From Prosopocoilus inquinatus (lineage: Eukaryota; Arthropoda; Insecta; Coleoptera; Lucanidae), in NCBI GenBank assembly GCA_036172665.1, contig CM069876.1, positions 4,030,001 through 4,094,000 on the forward strand: 64,000 nt of DNA. Reading direction: 5' to 3'. The notes beneath the pieces are model-generated. The model had not been told where the DNA came from, did no database searches, and worked only from the letters and a program-made list of their open reading frames with translations. Of this stretch, positions 5,975-62,062 are shown piece after piece (the first letter of the stretch is position 1; every line of letters starts with the position of its first letter). Made by a program: the position numbers and the translations under genes.

Positions 5975-5981
5975 AAAGCAT

Positions 5982-11065: not shown

Positions 11066-11167
11066 GTAACATTACAAACTTTTCAACTTTCTTTTAATTA
11101 GAGATCGAATTTAAATAAATTCTTTTTGTTGTGTCAAATAATGTCAAATAATAATATGTACAGATAA

Positions 11168-11240: not shown

Positions 11241-11295
11241 AATATGTACCTTTTTATGTAAGCTGTAAGGGCAGTTTAAACATTTAAAAGTTGTT

Positions 11296-20408: not shown

Positions 20409-20419
20409 TATAGTATTCC

Positions 20420-21150
20420 ATTTAAAAAATAATAAGTTAGGTTTGTAACTTATTAAATGGACAACCTGTATATTTGAAAATAATTTTAAATTATGCAGAA
20501 TGAAAAACTACACAACTTTTGTTCGGACATTTTCTTGATAAAATGAATTTAAAGGGGCATTTTTGGACTTTTCCAGAAACACCCTACAACCGCAATTTAA
20601 TAACCAAGGCGCGGATTCATATATTTTTTTAGTACACAAGCGGAGCGTCGCATATTTCTAAACCCAGTGCTCTCGCACTCGAATAAATTAGGGCCGCTTG
20701 ATCTGAGTGTGTACCAAACTGAAACAACCAACAGTCGACCGCATATTTTCTCTCTTTGTTGTGGATAAGCGCAGCATTCAATACTTCGTCGGCTCGCTGA
20801 CTTATTTGAAGGACAAATTTAACGAACTTTTTCTATGAAAGCTGAGCGAGCTAAAGATGTGCGCGCTGATTTTTTTATTTCATTTAAAATGCAATTTATG
20901 TAGCAAGTTTCTACTTGTTCTCTGCGAGGCGAGCCGCTTATGGAAAATGGGCAAAGCGTGGCGTATAAATAAAATCGTCCGGGATTTGTTAATAACAATC
21001 TCTTGGATTTAAATGACCAACCTGTAGATTCGAAAATAATTTTAAATTATGCGGAATGAAAACCTACACAACTTTTGTTAAGACCGATAAAATGAATTTA
21101 AAATGGGCATTTTTGAACTTTTCCAGGGGTTTAGGACACCCTGCACAATC
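20420..21150 (+). repeat. Direct pair of a short AT-rich repeat, third copy at 28905
   Basis: 20440-20600 and 20995-21150 share AAAATAATTTTAAATTATGC, GAATGAAAA(A/C)CTACACAACT, GATAAAATGAATTTAAA and GGGCATTTTTG(G/A)ACTTTTCCAG, ending near ACACCCT. The spacer (20600-20995) includes a GC-richer run with CGGAGCGTCGCAT and many CpG. A third, more diverged copy lies at 28905-29045. Nothing coding is seen. Confidence 0.75.
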
Positions 21151-21746
21151 GCATACACATTCCAAGACAAAATAAGTTTAAAAACGAATAGCGCAAACGA
21201 AACAGAAAAAAAGAAACTTAACAGATTTCAAAATTCACTTACCTCTACACGACACTAATGCAGCTATAATCACTCACACTCTTTTAATCTACAAATAAGC
21301 GAATTTTTTTACGGACAAATAGAATAAAATTATTGAAATTTATTGAGGAGTGTAACAATCACTTCTATTCGTTTACCGAACTGGCCGTAAACTGTTGAAG
21401 CAGCGCATGTATCTCGAAAAAAAAATTGAATAAGAACGCGTTAACCAGAGCCCACTCTGCTTGCAGTTTTTTTTTCCGTTCGTGAATCACATTTATAGAA
21501 AACATGAGTTTTAATCATTAAAAACGTTTTTAATACCGCCACGAGATAATATTATATCGACAAGAGAATCTTTCTTTACGTAATTTCTTGCAAAGAGCAA
21601 AGCAATGAGGGCGTCGTAAAATTAAAGTAATTAAAGTTAAAACGAATAAGCGAATAAGTTAAGCCGCGTCCACAACAATAAAAATATACAGGGTGTTAAG
21701 TTAAGCCGCAACAGTAGATAACTTACTCTTTTGAATTTTTACTAAT

Positions 21747-21890
21747 GGCCAGTTACACCAAACACTTAAGTCGAACTTAAATTTAAGTGCTGCTTATAAT
21801 GTGACATTTGATGTTACACAAAATTTTAGTAAGTCACATCTAAGCGGTGCTTAAAGTTAAGTTCGACTTAAGTGTTTGGTGCAACTGGCT
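21747..21890. mobile_element. Palindromic MITE
   Basis: The left end GGCCAGTTACACCAAACACT and the right end AGTGTTTGGTGCAACTGGC are inverted copies. The inverse symmetry continues inward (TTAAGTCGAACTTAA and GTCACAT/ATGTGAC blocks). It resembles the GGGCCATTTGCACCA MITE at 11299 in design, and may be a related Harbinger-type family, but a clean TTA duplication is not visible here. Confidence 0.65.
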
Positions 21891-21899
21891 ATATTTATA

Positions 21900-29730: not shown

Positions 29731-30938
29731 GTTTCAGGCTAGTCATAAATTTTCTAATTATTAAAATAACTATCAAATTTCATCCAATTTTCATTCTAGT
29801 CATCTATATACCACCATTGTGCAGTAGTAATGATTATTGTGTGCTTATCGATTTTTTAATGTCTTTATCTTGTTTATACGGATCTGAAATGCTTCTTTTA
29901 GGAGATTTTAACATCCCTGAATTTGAGTCATGCTCCTCTGGTGAACTTAAAATAACGCCACTCTATAGTTATATGAAAAACTAATCACATTTTTAATCAG
30001 AACAACAGACTTCTGGATCTAGTTTTCCTAAACACTTTCAGTCAATGCTGCGTATCTAAAGCAGATGATCCCTTTGTACCAGAAGATGTTCACCATCCAG
30101 CTCTTGGTATCGATTATGTTGTTTCTAAAAAAAACAGAAAAAGCTTCATTCTACTTCTGATTTAGAGTACAACTTCCGCAAATGCAATTTTAACCAACTC
30201 TATGAATCATCACTTAACGCCAGTTGGTCCTTCCTTGAGTCTTATTCTACTGCAGATACTGCACTTACTAAATTTTATGCCGTACTAGACGACATTTTTA
30301 AAATTCATGTACCAAGGAAAAAGTTTCCTCCGTCACGTACATATCCCACTTGGTTCACTATGGATATAATTAAAGGATTAATAAAGAAAAATACTCTCTG
30401 GAGAAGGTACAGGAGAACTAAATCAATCGAAGACTATAATCTTTTTAAATCATTAAGATCTTCAATTAAAACTGAAATTAAAACTGCTTATGCATCGTAT
30501 TTACAACATATCAACAACACCTTAAAACGCAATCTTACAGCTTTTTGGTCTTTTATACGGTCTAAAAGTGACTCTAATAATATTCCATCTGAAATTACCC
30601 ATAATGACAAGAATTTGAATAATCCCGAAGACATAGTCAATGCTTTCGCTGATTATTTTGCTCAATCCTTTATTAATAACAGTCATGTACAGGTTAATCA
30701 AGACTCTCTTACCTTAAACACAAACGTGCTAAACATAAACTGAGTCACTGAAGATGATGTAATTCGGGCTATTAAGAAGTTGAAACCTAAAATGACGTCA
30801 GGTCCAGATGGAATTCCTGCCTTTGTTGTACGAGATTATATTTATGTCTTTGTCAAACCTTTAACTAGGATATTCAATCTTATCCTTGGCTCTGGTCAGT
30901 TTCCGTCACTGTGGAAAGTTTCAAGAATCTGTCCTGTA

Positions 30939-31378
30939 CATAAAAAAGGTATTTAGAAAAATTTTGTGCAAATCGTTTTTGATTGCAGCGAGAACCTCGA
31001 GCAGCTTCTGGACAGCTGTTTCAGCCCTGCTTGGGGCTTCTTCAGCAGAAACGTAGCTCGACATTCCCGCTGCAGACCAAAAACGACTTGCCCAATTTAT
31101 TCGCAAATGCGATGTAAGAATGATGAACATATAAAATAGCGACATCTTACTATCGCTTTTTGACCTAACATTGCAGTAGGATAGACAAATTGAAACGGGA
31201 TTTGCTCCTAATGAGTCCCCCATGCAAGGCGGCCATTATGCTTTGACAGCAAGCATGGCCGCCTTGCATGGGGGACTCATTAGGAGCAAATCCCGTTTCA
31301 ATTTGTCTATCCTACTGCAATGTTAGGTCAAAAAGCGATAGTAAGATGTCGCTATTTTATATGTTCATAAAAAAGGTA
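30939..31378. mobile_element. Hammerhead repeat element, copy in the LINE (30952-31365)
   Basis: The insertion is flanked by CATAAAAAAGGTA on both sides (30939-30951, 31366-31378). It interrupts the LINE codons for the VHKKG motif. Part one (30952-31215) is the ribozyme module and the 3'-end module in minus orientation. Part two (31216-31365) is the 3'-end module in plus orientation, preceded by GCAAGCATGGCCGCCTTGCA. The two 3'-end modules face each other head-to-head and can pair over about 150 bp. There is no protein: the short frames seen in it recur in other copies only because the DNA is repeated. The terminal CAT may belong to the element, giving a 10-bp duplication instead of 13. Confidence 0.85.
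30997..31061 (-). ncRNA. Type I hammerhead ribozyme (copy 1)
   Basis: This has the same 65-nt fold as the copy at 50650-50714, on the minus strand: CTGAAGA, stem II AGCCC/GGGCT, GAAA, stem III with loop AGCT, and GUC at the cleavage site. It differs by one base in stem I (CAGAAG instead of CAGAGG), which changes a U-G wobble to a U-A pair. The stem is therefore kept or strengthened. Confidence 0.85.
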
Positions 31379-33147
31379 GTAAATCTAATATTCTCAATTA
31401 CAGACCGATATCAATTATATGTAATTTTGCCAAAGTCTTCGAGTTGTTGCTTCATGTCTTCTCTTATAATCATGTCTCACATATTTTAACCGTAAACCAA
31501 CATGGGTTCATAAATGGGCGATCAATTGAAATCAATTTGGTGTCAGTTACCCAATTTTTGTGTGAAGCCTTAGATGCCCAAGGCCAGGTAGACGTTATCT
31601 ACACGGACTTTTCGAAGGCCTTTGATACGATCGACCACGAGTTGCTGTTGCGTAAACTGGATTATTTTGGTTTTTCTGATAATTTGATTCAATTAATAAC
31701 ATCTTATTTGAATGATCGCTACATGTTTGTAACACTCAACGGACATAAATCCAATCTATTTAAACAGCAAAGTGGGGTACCACAAGGATCTGTGTTGGGC
31801 CCTCTGTTGTTTAGCATTTTTATCAATGATATTTCGGATAGCCTTGATACTTCGTTTTTAATGTATGCTGATGATTTCAAAATCTATCGTACTATAAACT
31901 CAGTAGAGGATTCAATTCATCTACAGAAGAACCTTGATGCAGTGTACGAATGGTGCAGGGAAAACAATCTTCCATTAAATGTCTCGAAATGTAATAAAAT
32001 GACTTTCATTTCAAGAAAACAACGTCTTGAAACAACATACAAAATTGATGGCACAGCACTTGTTAGACCCGATACTTTCCGAGATCTTGGTGTAATATTT
32101 GATCCTAAACTTACTTTCAGTAACCATATTGATTATATTGTTCAAACTGCCTTTAAGTACTTAGGCTTCATCATTAGAAACGGAAGAGAGTTCTCAGATT
32201 TTAATACCTTAAAACTTCTTTATACGACGTATGTCAGATCTCGTCTGGAGTATGCATCGTTAATCTGGTCTTCCATACACAATGTTTACATTTCCTCACT
32301 TGAACGGGTGCAGCGTAAATTCTTAAAAGCAGCTGCGTATTTCGCTGATGGGACCTATCCACCTAGAGGTTATCCTCAAGACCTCCTTCTGCAACGATTT
32401 AATCTGACATCGTTAGCCTCAAGACGTGTTGAACATTCGATAATTTTCCCGTTTAAGGTGATACATAACATACACGACTGTCCCATCCTACTTTCTAGAA
32501 TTAGTCTTAGAGTTGGTAGACCTAATTCCAAAATAAGAAACGTATTTTATGCACCCAATGTCAGAACAGATACAGGAATGAGTTCTCCGCTTAAGCAAAT
32601 TATTTATAATTATAACTGTGTTGAGCAATCATTGGACATATTTAATTGCACAATTTTGGAAATAAGAAATGCGATTCATTAAAACTGGTGTACTCAAGTG
32701 TCCTATAATTGGGCTTGTTCCGTTGGACACTTTAAGCAAATAATAATAATAATAATAAATATTTCGGTGTCAATTTTTTTATTAACCATCCTTTATGATC
32801 TCAGTATGTAGCAATTTGCCAGTAGAAATGAAGAGTATATTTACAAAATTTGCAACGAAATATGGTAAGTTAAAATTTGCTAGCAATTTCATAATTTTGT
32901 ATTGACTCCAGGCTTATTTTCGGCGAGTTTTATTCAAAATTTTTACTAGTCACTAATATCATGGATAATCCTTTGGGTTTGATTTCACAATTGTCTCTTT
33001 AGGGGTATTAGAAACGATTTTACAAGTCATATCTTTTTAATAATAATAATATTTATGTATTCTAGTTTTTAATACCGCATAATGTCATCAGTCTCTGTCA
33101 TCAGTTTTCACCAATTTTGAGAATCCAGAAGATTGCCTACCTGTATA

Positions 33148-34990
33148 ATAATAATAATAATGTTTATTTTGAGACTGGTACAGATAAGTTCGAGAAACGT
33201 CGCAATATTTTAAAATATGGTTAGCTAGAAACTATAATGTAATATCAAGTAATTGAATCCCCTGTGACGGAGAAACTTAGATTAGCTTTTGGTATTATCA
33301 CTGTCATACTTAAACTGATAAAAGTCATGTGACGAATATTGCTCTATTTCTATTAACAGGTTAAATATTTCATTTTTAACAGCATTTAAATTCTGTAGGT
33401 TAAACATTACCCTGTAACTTAATGGTTGATGGCTTCATACAAGAGTATCGGGTACCTCGCTCCAATTTGGTTAGCCTGTGAGCCATTATCGTTTCTAGTG
33501 ATGTATCAGCTGACATTATTGTTTTCAAAATTTACAAATAGATGTCTGTTTTTGAACAAGTATAATAAGCATTTACAGGTATATATTCCGTGTACTGTGA
33601 GAAGGCGCTTTGATTGGAATATTCCGCTGCAGGATTCTCCTGGAGATTGTTTGAACATAATTCGTATTGCTCTTTCTTGCATTGTAAAGATGTAATCGAT
33701 GTGTGCACTGTTTCCCCAGAATATGATTCCATATTGTAGATGAGGTATATACAATTCAGATTTGCGTCCACCTGTAAACCGACGTATTGCGCATTATTTT
33801 CCAAAATGTTTTTTTTTTGTCGTTTAAGTTTATGCGGGATGGGTTATCACAGAAGTTGATACTTTTGAATAGTGTACACTTGGTTTTACCGTCATTTTCG
33901 ATTAAGTTATTGATATACAACCAATCATCCATGTTCCTCACAGATTGACATACTAATTGCTTTACGTCCATGAACGTGGTACCGGTGACTAGCATGCAAG
34001 TAACATCAGCATAATTGAATATGTGGCAGGAGGATGTTTCGTTTTTTAGAGGCAGGTTCAAAAAGAGAATGAATATTAACGGGCCGAGAACGCTGCCCCA
34101 AGGTACGCCTATAGAGATTTTTGTTACCTTGAATTCCTAGCTTCCGTGTTTATGCATCATAACTACTTTTTGTAATCTATTGGAAAAATATGATTTTACC
34201 CAATCGAGGGCATTTTCCCTGATACCGTAGCAATCCATTTTTGAATACAAGATGTTGTGGTCTAGCGTCTCGAGTGCCTTCGTCAGATCCAAGAACACTT
34301 GAAGTGAAATCATAAACGGCAGTTTCGAAACCTTTGCCCTTCAAGAAACCGTGTTGGTTCGGATTCAAGAGGTTGTGTCGCAGCAAAACATTCTGTACTC
34401 TATTAAGCATTTTCAAAAATTTTGGAGAAGGATGATACCAGACTTATGGGCCTATAGTTAGATATATCTTCAGGGTCTCCTTTTTGTAAACTGCCCAGTT
34501 GCTAAGGGTGAATTTACGATGATAACGAGGGGAAGTGCTAGCTGGTAAATACTTCTTTTTTGTAAAAACAAGTTGTCAAAACCTGCACTCCTCTTACTTT
34601 TTGGCGTACTGGTAATATCGAGGACTTCTTCAATAAAAGTGGGATGAAGAAAAATAGATATGTGGCATTCATATTGACCTCCGTATTGTCTTCATCCGGG
34701 GATGTTACTTTTCTGAATATCCTCTACACGAGAGGCGAAATAGGTATTGAAAGCTTCTGCCGATAGGCTAGTTGGGACATTTTTGGGTGATTTCTTTCCC
34801 ACGCAATCTAAGACAACCTTGAATTGCAATTGAAATATATGAAGGTGGTGGAAGTTAAACAAATACTCTAACGGCTTCGGAGACATCAAAAGGAGTAATT
34901 CATAGATTGTGGCGATGTTATCAAGAATTTGGAAATCCAAAAGAATAGCGTGCGGGAAAACCACTAATGTCAGGCAGGTGAACAGAGCTC
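33148..34990 (-). pseudogene. Decayed LINE, minus strand
   Basis: Several short minus-strand frames line up as one LINE. 34964-34692 has the pre-reverse-transcriptase helix (LSAEAFNTYFASRVEDIQ). 34416-34177 has MLNRVQNVLLRHNLLNPNQHGFLKG, shortened here to its key part NPNQHGFLKG, matching the motif before the polymerase core. 34061-33756 has the position of the YADD box as NYADVTCMLV, so the second catalytic aspartate is lost. 33754-33506 has HLQYGIIFWGNSAH, the C-terminal motif. The 3' end has (ATT)n on the minus strand at 33148-33165. Many stops and shifts. The matching endonuclease piece may be at 35884-36066. Confidence 0.75.
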
Positions 34991-36309: not shown

Positions 36310-36607
36310 AATACCAAGAACGATGAACATATAAAATAGCGACATCTTACTATCGCTTTTTGACCTAACATTGCAGTAGGATAGACAAATTGAAGCGGGA
36401 TTTGCTCCTAATTTTATATGTTCATCATTCTTACATCGCATTTGCGAATAAATTGGGCAAGTCGTTTTTGGTCTGCAGTGGGAATGTCGAGCTACGTTTC
36501 TGCTGAAGAAGCCCCAAGCAGGGCTGAAACAGCTGTCCAGAGGCTGCTCGAGGTTCTCACTGCAATCAAAAACGATTTGCACAAACATTTTTCTAATACC
36601 AAGAACG
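36310..36607. mobile_element. Hammerhead repeat element, compact copy (36323-36594)
   Basis: It is flanked by AATACCAAGAACG on both sides (36310-36322, 36595-36607), an exact 13-bp target duplication. Part one (36323-36410) is the 3'-end module in minus orientation, beginning ATGAACATATAAAATAGCGA. Part two (36411-36594) starts with the last bases of the 3'-end module in plus orientation (TTTTATATGTTCAT), then the full ribozyme module, and ends AACATTTTTCT. It is 272 bp, non-coding, with no A-tail. Confidence 0.85.
36487..36551 (+). ncRNA. Type I hammerhead ribozyme (copy 2)
   Basis: Identical in all core and stem positions to the copy at 50650-50714: CTGAAGA at 36503-36509, a 5-bp stem II, GAAA, the short stem III with AGCT loop, and GUC with cleavage after 36537. 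Confidence 0.88.
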
Positions 36608-38089: not shown

Positions 38090-38157
38090 TAAATACTTAA
38101 ATAGGTCAAAAAGCGATTGTAGGATGTCGCTGTTTAAACTATCCATTAAATATTTAA
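38088..38157 (+). mobile_element. 44-bp micro-insertion of the hammerhead family 3' end (38101-38144)
   Basis: Only AGGTCAAAAAGCGATTGTAG and the following GATGTCGCTGTTTAAACTAT are present, the final part of the family's 3'-end module. It is flanked by ATTAAATACTTAA (38088-38100) and ATTAAATATTTAA (38145-38157), a 13-bp duplication with one difference. A copy truncated to its last 44 bp indicates which end is laid down first by reverse transcription. It lies at the very edge of the solo LTR and overlaps that LTR's own duplication. Confidence 0.8.
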
Positions 38158-38265
38158 ATTGTTAATATCAAAAATCGAGATAGGTCTACCGATTAAAGGG
38201 CAAAGGTTAGTATTAAAACATTTTTGTAGCGTTGCAGTGCTTTCCGACATGCTTATTAAATAGAT
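38158..38265. other. Short spacer before the Gypsy element
   Basis: Nothing recognised. This is the 5' flank of the retrotransposon, and its last bases do not match the 3' flank. Confidence 0.4.
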
Positions 38266-39571
38266 TGTTACCGTGCAAATTTCCCCGGTTGTTTTGAGCC
38301 ACCCTGTATGTTGTGTTGCGAGCTAAAAATAGATGTGTTTTTAGGCGAACAGTGGGCGTGGCGCGAACTCCACTTCCTTTGCATTTGCGGTTTCTTTTAT
38401 CGCCCACGTAACCCCTTTGATAATGCCGCTCGTTCCGAGCCGCGCTTAAATTACACATATTCCGCACTTGTTTTTACGACCTCGTGTTCTTTGAGAGAAT
38501 ACGTTTGTTTATTTTACTCAAGGAATTGTTTGGGATTGTTTGCGATTTCATTCTATGTCGCAATATCTACCGCCGTGTGAAACGAACTATGGCGTTCGAA
38601 ATTGATTGGCTGGTTTTAATCAGACATTCAATGGATGATTCTGGAATGTTCTCCCCCCCCCCCCCCGTTTTAACTCGTTACCACGAACCAAGGTCTGGAT
38701 TCATTCCAAAGTTGATTCCCGCAGTGATCGCAAGTATTTTTGTGTGGGTGATTTTCACTTGGTGTTGTGCGTGAATTCGTCCTCTGCGTGGGCAAATTCC
38801 CCCTTCGGCTTTGGGCCGGATTCTGTGCGATCGTTGCAGCAATAAACGCTTGTTTGGCGTTTTTCTAAGAAAGCCTGCTTGTTAGGGCAGGTGAGTTAAT
38901 AAGTGTGGGAATGTGTTTGATTCGTGTGTAACGGGGGCATATTTGTTTCTTTCTTCAGGCTTTTTCCTTCCCCCTTTTATATTGCGTTTGGGAGTTCGGA
39001 ATTTCTGCGAGAAGTGTAGAAATCACCTTCCGCCGTCGGACTCGACCTGAGACGCGACGTGTTATCCTTCCCCGTGGCTGTCGTGTTGCGGCCCGATGAA
39101 AAATTTGTGCCCGCCTGACTGACTATCGGACAAAGTTGGATCTTTAACGCTATTTTTGATTGATTATTGAAACTTTTGCTTTATCTGTTTTATAAGCAAG
39201 CTTCCTTTTTGCGTAACCATTTAACCTGTAATTGGTTTTTGTTTGTTTGTGGCCTTTACGCGCCACTATAAGGTACATTGTAATTTTGTTGTGTCGCATT
39301 TATTTTGTTTGATGTGTTAGTATGTAAACGGATTACCTTTATTTCTTTGTTCTGTCTATTTTGTGTGGTAAATAAAACAATCTTGTTTAACAAGGACGTA
39401 CCGCGTTTTTCTTAATTTCCCGCGGAAAGAAAATTAAATTGAGTGGCGCCTTTTTATTAGGTTGTTGGTTTGAGATTACTCCCACCCCGTCACGACTGTT
39501 TGCTGCCGGATGCGTCGAAACTAACGTCACGATGCAACATCTGCCTATCTTACGGAAAAGGTAAGGTAGCA
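38266..39571 (+). repeat. 5' LTR of the Gypsy element
   Basis: It begins TGTTACCGTGCAAATTTCCC and ends AAGGTAAGGTAGCA, matching TG...CA. It carries AATAAA at 38841 and 39371 and a C14 tract at 38653-38666. A well-formed short intron is possible at 38891-38958 (GTGAGT ... TTTCTTTCTTCAG). The exact outer limit is uncertain by up to four bases because the two copies also share the two to four bases outside TG. Confidence 0.9.
38891..38958 (+). other. Possible 68-nt mini-intron inside the LTR
   Basis: A consensus donor (GGGCAG|GTGAGT) lies 68 nt before a pyrimidine-rich acceptor (TTTCTTTCTTCAG|G). The length is typical of short insect introns. The same pair occurs in the 3' LTR at 46922-46989. 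The diverged LTR at 62063-63521 keeps the same donor in the same position just after AATAAA (CAG|GTGAGTTAAT at 62650), which suggests it is used. Confidence 0.45.
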
Positions 39572-39684
39572 AGTTTTGACGCCCAACGTGCGGGGCCTCG
39601 ATTTGTTTTGCGTTTTGTTTTCCGAAAAATTACGTCCAAGTTAGACAGAATTGTTTGTTTTATTGCGGAATTTTGCGCTTTGAT

Positions 39685-42600
39685 ATGGATCTTAAATTGT
39701 TACCCGATCGCCTTAATGCGGAAGAAATTAACTATGAACTCTTAGCGAGAGGTGTACAATGTGATGGTAATGTTGCGCAAAAAAGAGCGTACCTCAGACG
39801 ACAATTGCGTTTGGAAAAAGATTTGCGCTTACCTTTACCCAAATATGACGTGTTATTTGACGAAGACGCGACTGCCCTTCAGGAAAAGATTAGCGAGATT
39901 CGCTGCTTAATTGAGTCTGTCCCTGGCTCGACCGCTGTTTGCATTGTAGACAAAATTTCAGCCAAATTGGCTCACGCCATCGGACGCGCACAGCGTTCTC
40001 AGCCTTTGACAAACGACGAAGTACAACAACGTAAGTGTATTTTACAGACGTTAAATGAACTCGCGTTTGACTTTGAACAGACGACGTTAAGTTTCAGTCC
40101 TAAAGAAACTGAAGTTGTTAGGGCTCATGCGTCTCCCTTACTTGATTTAACGGCGATTGCGGATCATTTTCGAAATGATCAATCATCCATGATTTGTGTC
40201 AGTCCGAATGTTGTTGCGTCTCCTAGTGCGACTTCGTCGCCAAAAATTACGACGTCCCCGCCTAAAGCTGTTCTTCTTGAGTCCAAGGTTACGACACACC
40301 CTGTAACCGCGATCGAAATTAAATCGGTTCCTGTTTCCAAATGGGGTTTAACTTATAATGGGAATAATAAGATTCTCTCCCTTAGCGCCTTTTTGGAACG
40401 CGTTAGCGAACTCCAAATTTCGAGAAACGTTTCGGAAGCAACTCTGTTCGCTTCAGCGTCCGATTTATTTCGCGATAAAGCTTTAATCTGGTTTCGGGCA
40501 AATCGGAAATTTTGCAATAATTGGTCCGAATTCGTGCAAGGTCTTCGTGACGAGTTCCAACCCCATAACTATGACGACAAGTTATTTGAGGAAATAAAGA
40601 AACGCACCCAGGGTCCCGACGAATCAATGGGAATTTATATTTCTGTCATGCTCAATTTATTCGATCGTTTGAGCATCCCTGTCACGGAAAATGTTCGCAT
40701 AAAAATTCTTCTGAATAACATTGCCCCTTTTTATCAGCGTCAGTTAGGACTAGTCGAGGTTACTTCTGTCACCCAGTTATTGAAGATAGGTAGACAATTA
40801 GAGGTTCGTAAGTCCGCCGTAGAGGCATACATGCCTCCACCTCGTAAGAACAATACTCTAGAGCCTGACCTAGCCTATGTACAAGCCTGCGCACCAACCG
40901 TAAGTGAGTGTAAGGTAGATCCTCCTAAACCTACCAAAGCGTTTAAGTGCTGGAATTGTCAAAAGACAGGCCACCTATCCCGTGATTGCTCTGAACCCTT
41001 ACGTAGGCATTGTTATCAATGTGGACGTCCCAATGTCACCACTAAGACGTGCCCCCTGTGCTCGAAGAGTCCAAAAAAACTCCCGAACAACGCGTTAGAT
41101 GACCGGCTAGTGCGTTGCTTTAAAGTAACAAATCCGATCGAATCTCTGACTGTACAACCTGTTTTAGACTTTGTCCTAGCTCATGCAAAAGATGACGAAC
41201 GCCCATATCTGTCTGTATCCATCTTAGGCATTCCATTTCTTGGCCTCCTTGATTCAGGTGCGTCTCGCACAATTGTTGGTAGTTCAGGATGGGAAATCCT
41301 TCAGACTTTAAACTTACCTTTTACGAAACATGTGACGTCATGCACTGTTGCGAATGGACAACCCTGTAGTAGTCCTGGTAATGTTACCACCCCTATCCAA
41401 CTTCGTGACCGGGTCAAAGTGATTGACGTTCTTGTCGTTCCTGAGTTGCCGCATTCCTTAATTCTCGGCGCAGATTTTTGGAAGTTGATGGGCATCGTCC
41501 CTGACTTGCGCTCCGGTGAGTGGATTTTTGGAAAGGAATTCATTGAATCAGTCGAACATGTCACATCTTGGGGTCATCTGACACATGATCAACAGACCCA
41601 ACTTAATGAACGGACCGAACAGCTGTTTGCTGATTCCAGAAACCGTGAACTAGGATGTACCCAATTGGTCGAACATGTCATCCGTACTGATAGCCCACCA
41701 ATCAAACAACGATATTACCCGATTTCGCCAGCAAGACAAGCCATCGTCGATACAGAACTTGACGACATGATTAAGCGTGGAATTGTTGAGAAATCTAAGA
41801 GTGCTTGGTCATCGCCCATTCTTCTTGTACCCAAAAAGGATGGTTCTTTCCGCTTTTGTGTGGACTATCGGAAGCTCAACCAAGTTACGACCAAGGATGC
41901 TTATCCTCTACCTTATGTCTCGAACACCCTTGACAAACTCAAAGATGCTAAGTATCTATCTTCCTTAGATATCAAGTCAGCATACTGGCAAATTCCGGTT
42001 GCCGAAGAATCTCGCCAATACACCGCTTTCACCGTACCTAACCGCGGTTTGTATCAATTTCGCAGAATGCCTTTTGGTCTTCATAATTCTCCTGCAACTT
42101 GGCAAAGATTTATCGATTGTGTAATCGGTGCTGATCTTGAACCACAGGTGTTCGTCTATTTAGACGACATCATTATTGTGACTCAAACCTTCGACAAACA
42201 TCTCGAAGTACTCTCCGAAGTCCATAAACGCCTGACCGAGGCCGGACTAACCTTGAACGAAGAAAAATGCCATTTTTGTCTTAGCGAACTCAAGTACCTA
42301 GGGTATGTAGTGGATCGTCATGGTCTTCATGTTGACCCTGAAAAGGTACAGGCAATTCTTAAGATGCCTAAGCCAACTACGGTTAAGGAAGTTCGCCGTT
42401 TGATAGGAACTGCTTCTTGGTATCGGAGGTTTATCCCTGGATTTTCCACTATTATCTCCCCTTTGACAAACCTGCTTAAGAAAAATTCTAAGCATAGGTG
42501 GGATGAGACTTGTGATGAAGCTTGGGGAAAAATTCGTGAGCACTTAGTTTCTGCTCCAGTTCTCTCATGTCCCGACTTCACCAAAGAATTTACGATTCAA

Positions 42601-44238
42601 ACGGACGCATCCGATTATGGTCTTGGTGCTGTCCTTACCCAAGAACAAGACGAAGGTGAGAAAGTCATCTGCTATCTAAGCCGCTCGTTGACCCGAACCG
42701 AGCGTAACTTTTCAACAACCGAAAAGGAACTCCTTGCGATGTTGTGGGCCATAGAAAAACTTCGGCCTTATGTAGAAGGTTCGCACTTTAAGGTCATCAC
42801 AGACCATCACTCTCTCCTTTGGCTTAATAAGTTGCAGAATCCTTCCGGTCGATTGTGTCGTTGGGCTGTGCGCCTACAACAATATAACTTTAGCGTCATC
42901 CATCGCAAAGGAAAAGATCACGTTGTTCCTGATATGCTTTCTCGAACCGTCCCTGTTATCGACTCCATCGATTTTGACAACGTTCAGGACAGTTGGTACT
43001 TGAATTTCCTCAAGAAAATTCGTTTGACTCCGGAAAAGTTTCCTAGTTTCCGTGTCGAGGGAAATGTCATTTATAAACTGGTCCGAAACACATATTATCG
43101 TTTGGCTGAAGATGAACCTCATTGGAAGACTGTTGTCCCAAAGGATTCTCGGACAAAAATACTTCAAGAAAGTCATGACTCTCCAACCAGTGGTCATCTA
43201 GGAATTTATAAGACGTATAATAGAATCGCTCAAAATTACTATTGGCCTAAGATGCATGCTGATGTGGCAAAGTATGTCCACCGCTGCCAGACGTGTATCC
43301 GTACCAAACCTGAACAAAGGGCTCCAGCTGGTATGATGGGAGGTCACTCCAAGATTACTCGTCCTTGGGAGGTCATTAGTATCGATCTTGTTGGACCACT
43401 CCCTAGATCTTCTCGTGGTTACCAATATATCCTAGTGGCTACTGACTGTTTTAGTAAATTCACCCTGTGTTTTCCTCTTCGTAAAGCTACCGCCCCAAAG
43501 ATTGTGCAGCACATTGAGGAAAATATTTTCTTAGTTTTTGGTGTACCTCGCACCGTTATTTCCGATAATGGAGTCCAATTTAAGTCCAAAGAGTATCAAA
43601 AACTTCTGACGTCATACCATGTACGCCCTGCGTACACTTCGTATTATCATCCTAAGGCGAACCCTGTCGAACGCGTTAACCGCGTTATTAAGTCTATGTT
43701 GACTGCTTATGTGGCGGAAGACCACCGCAAATGGGATCTATTCTTGCCCAAGGTCGCTTGTGCTCTTCGAACCGCTCGTCATGAAGTTACTGGTGTGACT
43801 CCATACTTCCTCAATTTTGGTCGTGAGATGTGCCTAAAAGGTAGTCTAACCCCTGATAGTACCCCTGATAAAAATGTGTCTTTGGAAGTTGTCCCTCAGG
43901 ATCCTAAGGATTTACAATCTCGTACCGGTAAGTTTGCCGTGCTATATAAGGACGTACAAGGAAGGCTGCAAAAGGCTTACGAGAAGGCTAAAGGCCGTTA
44001 TGATCTCCGTAGGCGTAAGGTTGAGTATCACCCTGAACAACGGGTTTGGCGTAAAAATTTTGTATTGTCGGATGCTTCTAAGCATTTCGCGGCCAAGTTG
44101 GCCGATAAGTTTGTTGGGCCTTTCCTCATTAATCGTCGTGTGTCGTCAGACACGTATGAACTTAAGGATTTTGATGACAATATACTTCCTGGCACCTGGA
44201 ATAGTGAACATCTTAAACCAGATCCCCCTGATGAATAG
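39685..44238 (+). CDS. gag-pol: Gag-Pol polyprotein of a Ty3/Gypsy retrotransposon
   Basis: It encodes all proteins for particle assembly, reverse transcription and integration of the element. From ATG at 39685 it is 1517 residues; the frame is open 30 bases earlier but without an ATG. Capsid-like Gag spans about 220-400. Zinc knuckles are CWNCQKTGHLSRDC (422-435) and a second, histidine-free C-X2-C-X9-C-X2-C (443-459). The protease has DSGA at 523. Reverse transcriptase spans about 690-860 with YLDD at 825-828. RNase H has TDASDYG (D974). Integrase has the HHCC finger (H1164, H1171, C1201, C1204), catalytic D1234, D1294 and E1329, and a GPF module at 1478. Gag and Pol are in one frame, with no frameshift site or stop between them. 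All catalytic residues are intact, so it may be active. Confidence 0.96.
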   Translation: MDLKLLPDRLNAEEINYELLARGVQCDGNVAQKRAYLRRQLRLEKDLRLPLPKYDVLFDEDATALQEKISEIRCLIESVPGSTAVCIVDKISAKLAHAIGRAQRSQPLTNDEVQQRKCILQTLNELAFDFEQTTLSFSPKETEVVRAHASPLLDLTAIADHFRNDQSSMICVSPNVVASPSATSSPKITTSPPKAVLLESKVTTHPVTAIEIKSVPVSKWGLTYNGNNKILSLSAFLERVSELQISRNVSEATLFASASDLFRDKALIWFRANRKFCNNWSEFVQGLRDEFQPHNYDDKLFEEIKKRTQGPDESMGIYISVMLNLFDRLSIPVTENVRIKILLNNIAPFYQRQLGLVEVTSVTQLLKIGRQLEVRKSAVEAYMPPPRKNNTLEPDLAYVQACAPTVSECKVDPPKPTKAFKCWNCQKTGHLSRDCSEPLRRHCYQCGRPNVTTKTCPLCSKSPKKLPNNALDDRLVRCFKVTNPIESLTVQPVLDFVLAHAKDDERPYLSVSILGIPFLGLLDSGASRTIVGSSGWEILQTLNLPFTKHVTSCTVANGQPCSSPGNVTTPIQLRDRVKVIDVLVVPELPHSLILGADFWKLMGIVPDLRSGEWIFGKEFIESVEHVTSWGHLTHDQQTQLNERTEQLFADSRNRELGCTQLVEHVIRTDSPPIKQRYYPISPARQAIVDTELDDMIKRGIVEKSKSAWSSPILLVPKKDGSFRFCVDYRKLNQVTTKDAYPLPYVSNTLDKLKDAKYLSSLDIKSAYWQIPVAEESRQYTAFTVPNRGLYQFRRMPFGLHNSPATWQRFIDCVIGADLEPQVFVYLDDIIIVTQTFDKHLEVLSEVHKRLTEAGLTLNEEKCHFCLSELKYLGYVVDRHGLHVDPEKVQAILKMPKPTTVKEVRRLIGTASWYRRFIPGFSTIISPLTNLLKKNSKHRWDETCDEAWGKIREHLVSAPVLSCPDFTKEFTIQTDASDYGLGAVLTQEQDEGEKVICYLSRSLTRTERNFSTTEKELLAMLWAIEKLRPYVEGSHFKVITDHHSLLWLNKLQNPSGRLCRWAVRLQQYNFSVIHRKGKDHVVPDMLSRTVPVIDSIDFDNVQDSWYLNFLKKIRLTPEKFPSFRVEGNVIYKLVRNTYYRLAEDEPHWKTVVPKDSRTKILQESHDSPTSGHLGIYKTYNRIAQNYYWPKMHADVAKYVHRCQTCIRTKPEQRAPAGMMGGHSKITRPWEVISIDLVGPLPRSSRGYQYILVATDCFSKFTLCFPLRKATAPKIVQHIEENIFLVFGVPRTVISDNGVQFKSKEYQKLLTSYHVRPAYTSYYHPKANPVERVNRVIKSMLTAYVAEDHRKWDLFLPKVACALRTARHEVTGVTPYFLNFGREMCLKGSLTPDSTPDKNVSLEVVPQDPKDLQSRTGKFAVLYKDVQGRLQKAYEKAKGRYDLRRRKVEYHPEQRVWRKNFVLSDASKHFAAKLADKFVGPFLINRRVSSDTYELKDFDDNILPGTWNSEHLKPDPPDE

Positions 44239-46291
44239 GTTCACCCTATTCGTTCTTTCGACCTGCGGGATGGGTCCCTTAGAATTCTCCCGACGTATCT
44301 TCTGCGTGGAGTAAAAGGCTCCTAAAAGATTCAGTCCCAATTCCTCTAACACCTTTGGAATCGAACGTCTTCGGATGTTCACGTGTGATGAAGGTACTTT
44401 TCGGACAGTCTAGTCGTTTGCGAGAAGTCGCCTTGCAGTTTGCGGAAGTTGTGGGAATGACAAGAGAGTCGGATCTCGTGAAGACTCTTCTTGCCCTCTC
44501 TTTTCGTGAACTTCGCTATGAGTGACGTCTGGCAGGCCTCGCGATTGTGACGTGAGATGCCTCTATCCACATGCATATTGCTTTCCTTTCTTCTTGTTTC
44601 ACCCTTTCTTCTACTCTAACTCTTCCCCTTTCGGATTGATCAGCTCGGCCCTGCCGACTCTGAGATATCTCTTAGCACCCGCCAGAGCGTGTGGGAGTTC
44701 CAAGCGTGCTGGATCCCGTGGAGGTATCGCTTGCCCTCTCTCTCTGACGTATCGCTATCGGATGTTCCTCAGAGGAATCGGAGCTGTAGTATGGTGTGTT
44801 CCGATTGGAGGACTTTTACTTTCCTGTTGTCTGTCTTCCTCAACTTCTCTTTTTCTTTCCCCTTCCCCCCCTGTAACCTCTACCTTTTTGGGTGTCCTTT
44901 TGAGATTTAGTCATCTCAAATTTTTTTTTTTTATTACCCGGATTCGACTTTCTTCAGTTTACTTTTTCCTAAAGTAGGAAAACTCCCGGTTGTGACTGTT
45001 TTTCGCCTGACGAGAGCTTATCTCGTTGTGAGGAGTTTTATTTTGTTTTCGTGTCGTTTGGTGGGATGGCGATATTCCCTACCTTGATCCCTGCTTAGGC
45101 TTGCGTTGGTCCACAGACGGATTATGACCTGTTTGCGGTCTTGGAGTGTGAGGATCGTGGTGTGGAGTTCGTCGTTGTGGGTCTTCTTAGAAGACAAATT
45201 TTGTGACGGAGCTGACAACTCCTCGTGACTAGGGGATCCCCAGGAATAGAGTCTTTTAACCTTAGTAAAATTTTCTTCCCCGTATTTTAGTTTTGCCCTG
45301 GGAGTAGGATTTGACTTCAGGTACCGTAGTGTGCCTTATTGCTTCGCGGTTCGACCTTACCAGTCGACCACGAATTTCACTTGCTTTATAGCAAAAGTTC
45401 GCGTTGATCACCGGATCATTTAATTTTTTTTCTCCTTCCCTTTTGTCTTCTTCTTCTCGTTTCGAAAAAGACTTCCGATGGACCGAGATCGTTTGGATTT
45501 TCATTTTGTTGTTATTATTTGCTCTTACCATTCATTTTGTCCCGTATATTTCATTGTAGTTTACCATTTCCATAGTTTTTACCCCGGTTTTGTTTTAGTT
45601 TAGTTTCGAAGTTTGTCCCCGGCTTGGTTGTTACAGTCTTAGGACTCTGCCACCTCTCAATGTCTGTGACACGCGCGCGGTTGGTTGTGGTTTGGGCCAA
45701 GTCCTGGACAGACGGGTTTCTTTTTTGTTTTACATTGTTGTGGATCCAAGTAAATTTCTCGGTGATGTTAGTCTTTTCCAGGATGTCCCAGCATCCTTAG
45801 AATACTGTCAAATTTTACGTTGCCTGGGAAACTCTTTTGGTATTTGAGGATTTTGTAACATTTCAACGAACATTGCTTGGGTATTGGCATGGCCGCGCGG
45901 TGTATCGATCGGTAGTGGTATAGTTAACTTCCTCTTCTGGTGTTTGCCAGGTGGCGTGGTGTTTCCTGGTCAGACGATGTTGATGCTTGTCAACATGCGG
46001 ACCCCACCTGACTCTTTGTTTCCCTTTTTCTCTTCTCGCGTACCAGTCCGGTTTGTGCTCCGTGTGGGCGTGTTGCTGCTTGGGTAACGTTTAGTTTGAA
46101 TTTTTCCCGTGGTCTTTGACCAATGTTCGTTTTGTGTAAAGTTTCGTCCGCAGTCTTAGACTATGAGTTTCCGTCCGCGTTCCCGTATCGTTGCCTTTCC
46201 CCATACATGCCCGGATTATTCTGAGTGTCTCTCTATAGTTTCGTCTAGAAATTTTCCTTAGGTAAAATTTCCATCGAAGTAAGGGTGGGAT
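44239..46291 (+). other. Long 3' non-coding part of the Gypsy element
   Basis: Two kilobases lie between the Gag-Pol stop and the 3' LTR. The longest forward frame (44522-44977, 151 codons) is rich in S, F and L from pyrimidine runs. It has no signal peptide plus furin-site plus transmembrane pattern, so it is not an envelope gene. The strand is T- and CT-rich. The end holds the purine tract that would prime plus-strand synthesis. It may be a lost third gene or a regulatory/packaging region. Confidence 0.7.
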
Positions 46292-47602
46292 TGTTACCGT
46301 GCAAATTTCCCCGGTTGTTTTGAGCCACCCTGTATGTTGTGTTGCGAGCTAAAAATAGATGTGTTTTTAGGCGAACAGTGGGCGTGGCGCGAACTCCACT
46401 TCCTTTGCATTTGCGGTTTCTTTTATCGCCCACGTAACCCCTTTGATAATGCCGCTCGTTCCGAGCCGCGCTTAAATTACACATATTCCGCACTTGTTTT
46501 TACGACCTCGTGTTCTTTGAGAGAATACGTTTGTTTATTTTACTCAAGGAATTGTTTGGGATTGTTTGCGATTTCATTCTATGTCGCAATATCTACCGCC
46601 GTGTGAAACGAACTATGGCGTTCGAAATTGATTGGCTGGTTTTAATCAGACATTCAATGGATGATTCTGGAATGTTCTCCCCCCCCCCCCCCCCCCCGTT
46701 TTAACTCGTTACCACGAACCAAGGTCTGGATTCATTCCAAAGTTGATTCCCGCAGTGATCGCAAGTATTTTTGTGTGGGTGATTTTCACTTGGTGTTGTG
46801 CGTGAATTCGTCCTCTGCGTGGGCAAATTCCCCCTTCGGCTTTGGGCCGGATTCTGTGCGATCGTTGCAGCAATAAACGCTTGTTTGGCGTTTTTCTAAG
46901 AAAGCCTGCTTGTTAGGGCAGGTGAGTTAATAAGTGTGGGAATGTGTTTGATTCGTGTGTAACGGGGGCATATTTGTTTCTTTCTTCAGGCTTTTTCCTT
47001 CCCCCTTTTATATTGCGTTTGGGAGTTCGGAATTTCTGCGAGAAGTGTAGAAATCACCTTCCGCCGTCGGACTCGACCTGAGACGCGACGTGTTATCCTT
47101 CCCCGTGGCTGTCGTGTTGCGGCCCGATGAAAAATTTGTGCCCGCCTGACTGACTATCGGACAAGGTTGGATCTTTAACGCTATTTTTGATTGATTATTG
47201 AAACTTTTGCTTTATCTGTTTTATAAGCAAGCTTCCTTTTTGCGTAACCATTTAACCTGTAATTGGTTTTTGTTTGTTTGTGGCCTTTACGCGCCACTAT
47301 AAGGTACATTGTAATTTTGTTGTGTCGCATTTATTTTGTTTGATGTGTTAGTATGTAAACGGATTACCTTTATTTCTTTGTTCTGTCTATTTTGTGTGGT
47401 AAATAAAACAATCTTGTTTAACAAGGACGTACCGCGTTTTTCTTAATTTCCCGCGGAAAGAAAATTAAATTGAGTGGCGCCTTTTTATTAGGTTGTTGGT
47501 TTGAGATTACTCCCACCCCGTCACGACTGTTTGCTGCCGGATGCGTCGAAACTAACGTCACGATGCAACATCTGCCTATCTTACGGAAAAGGTAAGGTAG
47601 CA
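46292..47602 (+). repeat. 3' LTR of the Gypsy element
   Basis: Same sequence as the 5' LTR except for one substitution (47165) and a C19 tract (about 46679-46697). It is preceded by AAGTAAGGGTGGGA. Frames of 61-90 codons in it are identical to those in the 5' LTR because the DNA is duplicated; they are not genes. Confidence 0.92.
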
Positions 47603-47763: not shown

Positions 47764-48061
47764 GTAGAAAAAAGGACTACTCTTTTCAATTTCCTGGAGT
47801 CAACTGGTTCCTTAAGCTCGCAGTCGCGACCAGATTCTGGACTGATTTTAAGGTTATTACAAGGCAGATAAATATACAAGTCATTTAGAATACCGGGACT
47901 TCCTGACGGAAAGTAGAAAAAAGGACTACTCTTTTCAATTTCCTGGACTCAACTGGTTCCTTAAGCTCGCAGTCGCGATCAGATTCTGCACTGTTTTTAA
48001 GGATATTACAAGGCAGATAAATATACAAGTCACTTAGAATACCGGGACTTCCTGACGGAAA
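47764..48061. repeat. Tandem duplication, period 149 bp, two copies
   Basis: Copy 1 (47764-47912) and copy 2 (47913-48061) both start GTAGAAAAAAGGACTACTCT and end GGACTTCCTGACGGAAA. They differ at about eight positions. The period is not a multiple of three, although minus-strand frames through each unit read a similar peptide (YIYLPCN then CELKEPV). It lies just outside the Gypsy 3' LTR. I do not recognise the unit. Confidence 0.85.
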
Positions 48062-50228: not shown

Positions 50229-50286
50229 CAACATTACATTTTATAGAAAAATTTTGTGCAAATCGTTTTTGATTGCAGTGAGAACC

Positions 50287-50351
50287 TCGAGCAGCCTCTG
50301 GACAGCTGTTTCAGCCCTGCTTGGGGCTTCTTCAGCAGAAACGTAGCTCGA
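50287..50351 (-). ncRNA. Type I hammerhead ribozyme (copy 3)
   Basis: Exact inverted partner of the ribozyme at 50650-50714; all core residues and all pairs are the same. In a long transcript the two inverted copies could pair with each other and block folding of both. Confidence 0.88.
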
Positions 50352-50649
50352 CATTCCCACTGCAGACCAAAAACGACTTGCCCAATTTATTCGCAAATGC
50401 GATGTAAGAATGATGAACATATAAAATAGCGACATCTTACTATCGCTTTTTGACCTAACATTGCAGTAGGATAGACAAATTGATTGCATGGGGGACTCAT
50501 TAGGAGCAAATCCCGCTTCAATTTGTCTATCCTACTGCAATGTTAGGTCAAAAAGCGATAGTAAGATGTCGCTATTTTATATGTTCATCATTCTTACATC
50601 GCATTTGCGAATAAATTGGGCAAGTCGTTTTTGGTCTGCAGTGGGAATG

Positions 50650-50714
50650 TCGAGCTACGTTTCTGCTGAAGAAGCCCCAAGCAGGGCTGAAACAGCTGTC
50701 CAGAGGCTGCTCGA
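50650..50714 (+). ncRNA. Type I hammerhead ribozyme (copy 4, reference description)
   Basis: A self-cleaving RNA motif. Outer stem I: UCGAG (50650-50654) with CUCGA (50710-50714). An internal loop follows, CUACG opposite CUG. Inner stem I: UUUCUG (50660-50665) with CAGAGG (50701-50706), including two U-G pairs. Core: CUGAAGA (50666-50672). Stem II: AGCCC (50673-50677) with GGGCU (50684-50688), loop CAAGCA. Core: GAAA (50689-50692). Stem III: A-U and C-G pairs closing the loop AGCU (50694-50697). The cleavage triplet GUC ends at 50700. The very short stem III with a self-complementary AGCU loop is what is known from hammerheads of Penelope-like elements and retrozymes, where pairing between two copies helps cleavage. 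Confidence 0.9.
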
Positions 50715-50910
50715 GGTTCTCACTGCAATCAAAAACGATTTGCACAAAATTTTTCTAAAATTTTTCATTATGCTTTGACAGCAAGCATGGCCGCCTTGCA
50801 TGGGGGACTCATTAGGAGCAAATCCCGCTTCAATTTGTCTATCCTACTGCAATGTTAGGTCAAAAAGCGATAGTAAGATGTCGCTATTTTATATGTTCAT
50901 TACATTTTAT

Positions 50911-59283: not shown

Positions 59284-60375
59284 GAAAAACAACAAGGATT
59301 AAAAATATAAATTCAACCGTATTAGAATTGAACATTATGTTAACATATTTGATCATATTTTAATATTTTACAAAAATTTAAAATAGCAGCTTGAAATTTT
59401 GACGATTATTGAACGAAACAATTGAATCTTTTTTATATACATGCCCACAATTTCAGCCCAAAATTTTTGTTATTCGGTAATGTTTCATTCGTGGTCTAAA
59501 TTAGGCCTGAACAGGAAAGCACGAAGAGAGCGAGCAAGTAGTAGCCGCCTAATATTCGTCGGGCATCAATGGAAACGAATGGAAAAGTATGGTAACAATG
59601 AACCGATTAAAAATCGAATGTAAATTCTCAGAAGTGACGAAAAAGTTTTGTTTTTGTTATTATTATTTGAGATAAAGCGACAGCTAATACTGCGAAGCAG
59701 GGGGATATCATTGGAAATAAATTTTGTGGCTCCAAATGTGTTTCAAAATATGTGATTTTTCCTATTAAAGAAAATTAATCCCTGTGCTACCAACTGCAGA
59801 AGGTGAGTCGAAACAGGTGATTGAGAAATTCAATTTTTTTTTATATCTTTTATATCTTACCACAATCGTATTCTGCATCACTTGCCCTTTCTGCCAAAAG
59901 TATGACATATTAACGGATTATACAGGCTATTCAAAAAGTGTCACAAGCTTCGAGGAGGGTTAACTTGGCCCAAGATACGCAGCAGAATGTTAATGAAAAT
60001 TGATATACCAATGGGAGATTTCGGAGATGCGGAGGATTTATTCCTTTTTGTAACATTTGTACATTGTATCTCAACTTGCATTTTCGTATTCTAATCGACA
60101 AAGATTCTGTCAAACATACAATTTGTAGTCGACCTTCAGTGGTTGATGCACAACTTTACGAATTTTCGCTCTGCCTGTTTACTTTAACATGGAATGGAAA
60201 CTGTCAATTGAAAATTTATGGGCGTATTTCCATTAATAGCGTCTTCAACTGATTACTCTAGACTGCTCTCAGAGTATTTGTTACAGTCCAAATCCACCGA
60301 ACTAGCGCCTTTGCGTGTTTTCCTGTAGACGTGGCATTTGTCAAAGGTCTAAATTCGCTTCTTGTTTTCACTCTG
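59284..60375. other. Unassigned DNA
   Basis: No gene recognised. CAGGCTATTCAAAAAGTGTC at 59925-59944 looks like a transposon tip, but no partner was found. Confidence 0.35.
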
Positions 60376-61997
60376 TACAGAATGGACCATTTCTGATGGT
60401 TTTCCAGGGTTTCTCAGTTATTTAGAGCAGCAGAAGAAAACCGTTCTCGCGACCTAGTGCTACTTTTTCGAGAAAAACCGAGTGAAAATAACAAAAGTTA
60501 GCTATCTCGATTCGTTCGAGAAATATCGGCCAAAAGCGAATTTTCGCGAAAAACTATTTTTCACAATAACTCGGTAATTTGATGAGGTATTTTGAAAATT
60601 CACAAACTGTTTTATTCAGCAACGAGCGCAGATCTAACTGACATTATTGTCTTTCATAAAAGCCGCCGTTTTGCGAAACCGAATATAACTTTAAAATTTT
60701 AAATGGACACCGCAGTTGGCTATGACACCAGTAAATTGCTTGTTTCCCTACCTTTTCAAAAATATATAACTCGATACATTTATTTTCATAAACAACGAAA
60801 TTATTGAATATTTTCATTTTTCTACCGCAACAAAGAATGCTAGGGCATTAAGTAGGCTTAGATTGCTAAACTCAACAAATGAAGAAAAAATCATAATGTG
60901 ACGCTGTCCTGTCAAAATTAAAAGGTCACGTTACGATGGTTTGTTACGATAATTTGGAGAAATGGGACATGCTTACAGCATATACCGAGAGCAGGAAGGA
61001 TTTAATTACAACATCCGAAATATACTTCACTAGATACCCAGAAAGACGGCAACCAGATTCAAGAGTTTATATGAGAATTGAAAATAATTTAAAACTGTAT
61101 GGAGCTTTTGAGAAACCCAAACCAAAAAAGTACAGTAAACCTGAGAAAGAAAATGAGGTTGTAAACGTTTTGGCGTTGATTGAAACCAATCCAAATATTT
61201 CTTCGAGAGAAATAGAAAACAATATAGGAGTAAGTAAAACAAAAACTTTACGAATTTTACAATAGCATAAATTTAGACCATGCAAAATTAGAATGAATCA
61301 TTTTCTATATCCGGAAGATTTTCAAAAAAGGACAGAATTTTGTCAATGGTGCTTAAATAAGTGTAGATTGGACAATACTTCCCAAAATAACATCATTTAG
61401 AGAGACGAAGCCCGATTTACCAACTACGGAACATTTAATCGTCATAATCATCATCACTGGAGCAATGAAAATCCTCATGCCACAACTACTCGACGTCGGC
61501 AAGGACGATTTGGAGTGAATGTTTGTTGTTTTCTTAAAAAGAACAAGTGATACTATTTTACGTATGAGCAAAATTTGAATGCTGCTAAGTTAAGAAACCT
61601 TCTATCTTTTTTAATGTTTTCTATTGAAGAGTTTTTTTCTTTAAGAAATTACCTGTAGTTTTGTGTAAGTCGCAGTAGGTTATGCATTACTAATTATTAC
61701 TTCTATTTTTTAATTGATGTAGAATTTTGAACTCGATCGTATTCCTCCTAAGTTTGTTAATCTGGAGATTTAAATGACTCTATAAAATCTAATAGTGCTT
61801 ACAAGTGGGTTCAGAATTGTAGCATGTTATAAATTAGTTTCAGCTATTGTAACAATTGATTTTTTGAGAAAAACCAATAATATGAATATCTTTTAGTTTG
61901 GTGCATAGGTAACTTGTTGGTCGTGAGAACGGTTTTCTTCTGCTGCTTTAAATAACTGAGAAACCCTGGAAAACCTTCAAAAATGGTCCACTCTGTA
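60376..61997 (+). mobile_element. IS630/Tc1/mariner-type transposon (60378-61995), dead
   Basis: Near-perfect terminal inverted repeats of about 80 bp start CAGAATGGACCATTTCTGAT on the left and, read inward, CAGAGTGGACCATTTTTGAA on the right. Both carry TTCCAGGGTTTCTCAGTTAT and GAAGAAAACCGTTCTC. TA flanks both ends (60376-60377, 61996-61997). At 1618 bp it has the normal size for the group. It holds one broken transposase gene. Confidence 0.85.
60936..61570 (+). pseudogene. Mariner-related transposase with DUF4817-type N terminus, truncated
   Basis: The first frame (60936-61265) has the N-terminal helix-turn-helix of this common insect family: a SEIYFTRYPERRQPDSRVYM motif (usually 'RYP.RR.P....F') and a second helix-turn-helix (NPNISSREIENNIGVSKTKT). 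After a stop at 61265, another stretch reads LYPEDFQKRTEFCQWCLNK, then RDEARFTNYGTFNRHNHHHW. This contains the first catalytic aspartate in the place of 'TDEA.FT..G..N.HN.H.W'. It breaks off near 61570. The second aspartate and the catalytic acid near the C terminus are missing, so it cannot be active. Confidence 0.8.
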
Positions 61998-62062
61998 CAA
62001 CAAGAATTTTAGCTCAGTTTATTATCTTCAAGCTATTTTTAGCGAATCAAAAAAGCAAGGCT

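Follow-up and report, generated by a model that had tools for sequence, protein, structure and literature searches.

What kind of element carries the hammerhead motifs of this Prosopocoilus inquinatus locus, and how did its copies come to lie in mirror image? We analysed the whole stretch of 64,000 nucleotides (hereafter called the window), which has a GC content of 34.8% and contains Gypsy and LINE elements. A sequence-only reading had described four complete type I hammerhead ribozymes in a short repeat family, and had suggested that this family is an undescribed non-autonomous hammerhead retroelement. That reading covered the motifs only; added here are a 312-nt unit, the head-to-head arrangement of its insertions, their target-site duplications and a fourth copy of the element.

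Results

Four hammerhead motifs in three insertions

The description of the motifs holds for all four, in both position and strand. Insertion C carries a direct copy at 50650-50714 (plus strand, predicted cleavage 50700/50701) and an inverted copy of identical sequence at 50287-50351 (minus strand). The motif of insertion B, at 36487-36551 (plus strand), is again identical. That of insertion A, at 30997-31061 (minus strand), differs at 1 of 65 positions, by a G-U to A-U change in stem I. The count of four complete ribozymes needs qualification: there are four motifs, but they are spread over three insertions, and C is palindromic and holds two of them. Moreover, the motifs are near copies and are therefore not four independent witnesses.

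All parts of a type I hammerhead are present: CUGANGA, GAAA, UH at the cleavage site and three stems, with stem I open. In the copy at 50650, C3 of CUGAAGA is position 50666, stem II pairs AGCCC with GGGCU (50673-50677/50684-50688) and GAAA occupies 50689-50692. Stem III has 2 bp, with AGCU closing it, and C17 is position 50700 (unit 217). Stem I comes in two parts, an inner GUUUCUG/CAGAGGC and an outer UCGAGC/GCUCGA whose termini fall exactly at 50650 and 50714; it includes a bulge, UAC/U, and the loop CAAGCA is also present.

Such motifs are rare by chance. A loose hammerhead pattern matches 4 times in the window against 0.36 expected, and a strict scan of the two strands, with pairing required in stems I, II and III, finds the same number in the window and 0 in 400 Markov-1 resamples. 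Covariance models were less generous. At the gathering threshold, Rfam gave 0 matches in the window to any family, and a permissive search (up to E 10) gave 18 matches, no hammerhead among them. We rejected the microRNA matches to the palindromes, as all 18 Rfam matches score below their own gathering score and reflect long hairpins. A 91-nt stretch searched alone matched RF00163 (Hammerhead_1) over its full length with 23.8 bits (E 0.00036, for 91 nt). The gathering score is 34, so the covariance hit above threshold that the sequence-only reading had proposed as a check was not reached.

Predicted folding gives a mixed picture. For a 169-nt arm, the minimum reported by RNAfold is -78.6 kcal/mol, and enforcing the hammerhead gives -72.6, tertiary contacts being outside the model. 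The optimum uses another core pairing, and the hammerhead fold lies 6 kcal/mol higher. Free folding of 73 nt gives z-scores of -2.5 for the three identical copies and -3.2 for copy A, in a fold where part of the core is paired to stem III. With the hammerhead enforced, stem I is predicted to have 44 pairs. Insertion A has three changes in this arm and all keep the pairing; they include a two-sided compensatory change at unit 159/239 and the G-U to A-U change at 178/222. As it comes from two distinct sequences only, this covariation is suggestive, not strong, evidence for the ribozyme fold. The two pairs of stem III with AGCU, ACAGCUGU, are identical to their own reverse complement, so that action as a dimer is possible, as reported for axolotl hammerhead motifs (PMC7229834).

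Is the motif nevertheless a chance pattern, or a dead repeat that has no ribozyme function? The missing Rfam match at threshold and the disrupted core of the minimum-free-energy fold would fit such a reading. Resampling does not (0/400), and neither does the conservation of the motif: the ribozyme core is intact in all four arms that span it, and the changes in A leave the stem paired. We regard a chance or dead motif as extremely improbable.

A 312-nt unit and insertions flanked by 13-bp duplications

The motifs are part of a 312-nt unit, read here from insertion C (50484-50795, plus strand, with C17 at unit 217). Its GC content is 42.9%. Folded as a circle it reaches -112.3 kcal/mol, compared with a resample mean of -73.4 (sd 8.0; 0 of 100 as low), with 65% of bases predicted to be paired. 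Coding capacity is small: one lap of the circle is 104 codons, and ATG frames reach at most 96 aa on the ribozyme strand and 48 aa on its complement. A 151-aa frame that runs across insertion B matches no Pfam family. No PLE (Penelope-like element) protein was seen, and the 4 ORFs of the window scanned with Pfam gave no GIY-YIG match.

Besides the three insertions that carry hammerheads, a search of the window with the unit from C found a fourth, insertion D, and two relics, E and F. Insertion A (30952-31365, minus strand, 414 bp) lies inside a LINE reading frame. Insertion B (36323-36594, plus strand) has 272 bp, and insertion C (50245-50897, minus strand) has 653 bp and presents its two hammerheads in mirror image. 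Insertion D (11162-11236, plus strand, 75 bp) is diverged and lacks the ribozyme core.

Exact 13-bp direct repeats border all four insertions: 30939-30951 and 31366-31378 for A, 36310-36322 and 36595-36607 for B, 50232-50244 and 50898-50910 for C, and 11149-11161 and 11237-11249 for D (low and high side in each case). Random pairs of points at the same separations reached 13 bp in 5 of 4000 cases. Indeed, joining the flanks of A with one copy of the repeat restores a 503-aa open LINE frame. This marks A as a clean insertion, bounded by a true target-site duplication.

The LINE-like element that holds A extends over 30129-32682, its reverse transcriptase frame split by the insertion. We considered whether the reverse transcriptase frame at 31444-32682 might be a PLE flanked by pseudo-LTRs at 30.9 and 36.4 kb, and rejected this because that frame is LINE-like and interrupted by A; a PLE between the repeats is also ruled out by every repeat having duplications of its own. 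Decayed LINE-like reverse transcriptase fragments were recognized by eye from the translations at 33756-34443 (minus strand). The window also holds a Ty3/Gypsy-like element (38263-46983) with an intact 1527-aa gag-pol frame (39655-44238). The 300-nt stretches of its terminal repeats are identical, so that this element is probably a recent insertion. Among the best 120 of 4402 matches (7968 scored) to its protein, the two that name an organism are both from arthropods, Popillia japonica with 62% and Cordylochernes scorpioides with 41% identity.

Fixed outer ends and variable inner ends

All four insertions share one layout. Read in the orientation of the ribozyme, an inverted arm is followed by a direct arm (4/4). 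In A, the inverted arm runs from unit 102 past 1 to 283 (132 nt) and the direct arm from 307 past 312 to 276 (282 nt). The arms of B cover unit 105-16 (inverted) and 93-273 with one extra nucleotide (direct). In C, read on the minus strand, the inverted arm starts at unit 102 and goes through a full lap to end at 1 (414 nt), and the direct arm covers 35-273 (239 nt). The divergence of D makes its limits approximate: ~97 to ~72 for the inverted arm and ~223 to ~270 for the direct arm.

The outer ends of these arms are nearly fixed, at unit 102-105 and 273-276 in A, B and C and at ~97 and ~270 in D. We refer to the position near unit 273 as site 1 and to that near unit 102 as site 2. Bases shared at the ends, up to 3 nt on the site 2 side, leave the limit of duplication and element uncertain by as much. 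The inner ends are variable: 283/307 in A, 16/93 in B, 1/35 in C and ~72/~223 in D. By eye, the sequence shared at the junction is 0 nt in C, 2 in B, 3 in A and about 2 or more in D.

The outer ends differ from the predicted cleavage site (217/218), which argues for internal initiation and against a start at the termini of a monomer released by self-cleavage. We consider two-sided internal initiation probable. The templates themselves can be described further. The inverted arm of C, at 414 nt, is longer than the 312-nt unit, and its template was therefore circular or multimeric. The cleavage site is crossed without a break by the long inverted arm of C and by the direct arms of A, B and C. Those templates were therefore either uncleaved there or religated; a template of more than one unit is required by C alone. 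Both arms of A carry a private change at unit 33 and were therefore copied from one source. The direct arm of D ends about five nucleotides short of the cleavage position; this would fit a cleaved template and, as a single case, proves nothing.

Only C exceeds one unit (414 nt, in one arm) and the window contains no tandem array. A plain tandem array, which the 312-bp spacing might bring to mind, is ruled out by the inverted arms and by C alone going beyond one unit. Relics E (10400-10479, plus strand) and F (38102-38144, plus strand) preserve nothing of the unit beyond the stretch upstream of site 2. We tried both as head-to-head copies and kept them as relics, because no inverted arm was found and the best exact repeat is 8 bp in each case. 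By eye, F has a repeat of 15 bp with one mismatch at 38088/38145.

Could the mirror images arise by folding back? A single cDNA or antisense RNA that snaps back and primes its own copying would yield palindromes, and PMC3846280 favours such self-priming, on an antisense template, as the source of the inverted copies in rotifer Penelope. The long complementary arms of C and A, with 239 and 108 unit positions common to both arms and loops of 34 nt and about 24 nt between them, would suit such a process. However, the two arms have only 13 positions in common in B and 0 in D, so that a fold-back cannot have primed D and hardly B. Moreover, self-priming does not predict a fixed site 2. We judge it very improbable for this family.

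The main rival explanation is twin priming by a LINE, which would have moved the same retrozyme and inverted part of it on the way. Twin priming is known from human L1 and yields inverted 5' parts, duplications and microhomology at the junction. LINE-type reverse transcriptases are present in the window. The target end may also pair with the RNA at site 2: its last bases, ATG in A and C or G in B, continue the unit, making homology-guided priming possible. But CAT occurs at 8 places in the unit, whereas site 2 hardly varies among A, B and C and D comes near it; microhomology alone is therefore insufficient. A duplication of 13 bp in 4 of 4 insertions, few as these copies are, is not readily explained by twin priming, and site 1 is internal and has no poly(A) or microsatellite tail. 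LINE twin priming is accordingly an unlikely account.

The window holds other inverted repeats as well. Of 11 such structures tested, none has a duplication of 13 bp (the longest are 11 and 10), and a mechanism common to them and the hammerhead insertions is therefore not shown. They include large inverted repeats at 3366-5975, which measure 575 and 371 nt, are 96-97% complementary and may have a 10-bp duplication (3358/5973), and an inverted repeat of 81 nt at 60374-61999, close to whose ends lies a direct repeat of 11 bp. At 19432-22984, copies of another repeat family (85-94% alike) form a cluster in which they are nested and inverted. A 149-bp unit is present twice in tandem at 47764-48061, with 96% identity between the copies.

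Discussion

The element is almost certainly a family of metazoan non-LTR retrozymes. This class, with type I hammerheads and with insects among its hosts, was described by Cervera and de la Pena in 2020 (PMC7229834). As reported there for other members, the hammerhead is of type I with a short helix III, the unit of 312 nt falls within 150-450 bp and its GC content of 42.9% is below 50%. No LTR was seen, the ends of the insertions are not repeats of each other and the 13-bp duplications exceed 4 bp. The predicted circle is highly paired, and in place of a large coding frame the unit has no coding capacity for its own mobilisation. It is not an autonomous PLE: the insertions measure 75-653 bp, and a unit whose frames do not exceed 96 aa has neither reverse transcriptase nor GIY-YIG endonuclease.

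The proposal of a non-autonomous hammerhead retroelement is thus well supported, by four insertions with target-site duplications, the short longest frame and the intact core of every arm that spans it. "Undescribed" can apply to the sequence family only, since the class is in print. Patterns from the unit had no match in viral and prokaryotic DNA collections, which says little given those sources.

Could the unit instead be a solo pseudo-LTR derived from an autonomous PLE, and not an independent retrozyme? PLE pseudo-LTRs carry type I hammerheads (PMC7761336, PMC11167929) and can move without the coding region (PMC3846280). Relics E and F together with copy D also point to a wider, diverged family. 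Yet the hammerheads of PLEs are described as minimal, and helix III or the tertiary contacts are usually missing from them (PMC7761336), whereas those found here have a helix III of two pairs and a predicted stem I of 44 pairs. Moreover, in C one unit runs on into the next and no coding region separates them. A pseudo-LTR origin therefore seems improbable, and we continue with the independent retrozyme.

How would such a retrozyme insert? On balance, we favour PLE-type two-sided target-primed reverse transcription of the retrozyme RNA, a reading that leans on the anatomy of the insertions. Multimeric transcripts would self-cleave at unit 217/218 and be ligated to 312-nt circles. A reverse transcriptase with an endonuclease would nick the target strands 13 bp apart, so that both strands offer a 3' end. 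On a single RNA circle or multimer, extension of one of these ends would begin at the internal RNA site 1 (unit ~273) and extension of its partner at site 2 (unit ~102), likewise internal. Both cDNAs would run away from their ends, could circle the template more than once, and would be joined at no fixed position, with 0-3 nt shared at the junction. Head-to-head arms, fixed outer ends, variable inner ends and a constant duplication would all follow, because two cDNAs would start from internal sites of their own at a break staggered by 13 bp. The copies are few, only four with one diverged, and this small sample limits the claim about mechanism.

The same anatomy makes a PLE the somewhat likelier source of the enzyme, probably provided in trans. 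All four insertions, again a small sample, have the features of PLE-type insertion: head-to-head inverted arms, duplications and internal start sites. In rotifers, Penelope copies often lie head to head with inverted pseudo-LTRs and have 8-10-bp duplications, some copies having none (PMC3846280). In vitro, the purified PLE protein of Anolis cleaves both strands of the target and extends them, and it starts inside the RNA at a site that has no homology to the target (PMC11167929). That PLEs move retrozymes is already a published guess: they are called a strong candidate mover of metazoan retrozymes in the Discussion of PMC7229834, on the grounds of co-occurrence, shared hammerheads and tandem layout, and mobilisation by PLEs is also proposed in PMC7761336 and PMC8969392.

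These observations bear on what moves retrozymes in animals. The combination of fixed outer ends, a constant duplication of 13 bp and arms placed head to head is a structural fingerprint. Copies that show it can be counted across a genome and set beside the PLE copies found there, so that the question is amenable to direct test. Moreover, an arm longer than the unit, as in C, is evidence at the level of sequence for a circular or multimeric template. The Discussion of PMC7229834, as well as PMC7761336 and PMC8969392, raise the possibility that metazoan retrozymes are a kind of SINE. We tentatively extend this, at slightly less than even confidence, to an analogy in which animal retrozymes would relate to PLEs as Alu does to L1. 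The PLE protein would take up the circle produced by the ribozyme, make a fixed 13-bp staggered cut and prime cDNA from both broken strands at two dedicated internal sites of the same RNA. Each insertion would then capture two cDNAs joined head to head and, in C, one that made more than one circuit of its template.

The comparison with known systems brings out what is particular to this family. Metazoan retrozymes are reported in tandem, from dimers to large multimers (PMC7229834), whereas here all copies are head to head and 3 of 4 have about one unit or less per arm. Circular RNA has been demonstrated for metazoan retrozymes in that work, whereas for the present element it is a prediction. 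The word "inverted" occurs 0 times in the main text of PMC7229834, as distinct from its supplements, and in PMC7761336 only in the reference list; the parts of the retrozyme and Penelope literature drawn on here describe no mirror-image layout for a retrozyme. The LTR retrozymes of plants, as set out in PMC7229834, are also non-autonomous and spread via circles made by ribozymes, but they have type III hammerheads, LTRs, a length of about 700 bp and 4-bp duplications. Schistosoma W-elements and satellite-like hammerhead repeats (PMC8490949) are likewise short repeats for which possible duplications and inverted repeats are mentioned; in the portion of that paper used here, W-elements are satellite-like and appear without a two-site head-to-head insertion.

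Unlike the 312-nt unit, PLEs encode a reverse transcriptase and, in most cases, a GIY-YIG endonuclease. The duplications are 13 bp here and 8-10 bp in rotifer PLEs (PMC3846280). The start sites lie ~170 nt apart, one of each per insertion (4/4), whereas the two start sites of the Anolis PLE are adjacent, with the same sites serving both strands and an optional tail of 30-40 bp (PMC11167929). With PLEs, as described in PMC3846280 and PMC11167929, the family shares head-to-head inverted copies, short target-site duplications, internal starts, the use of both target strands and type I hammerheads.
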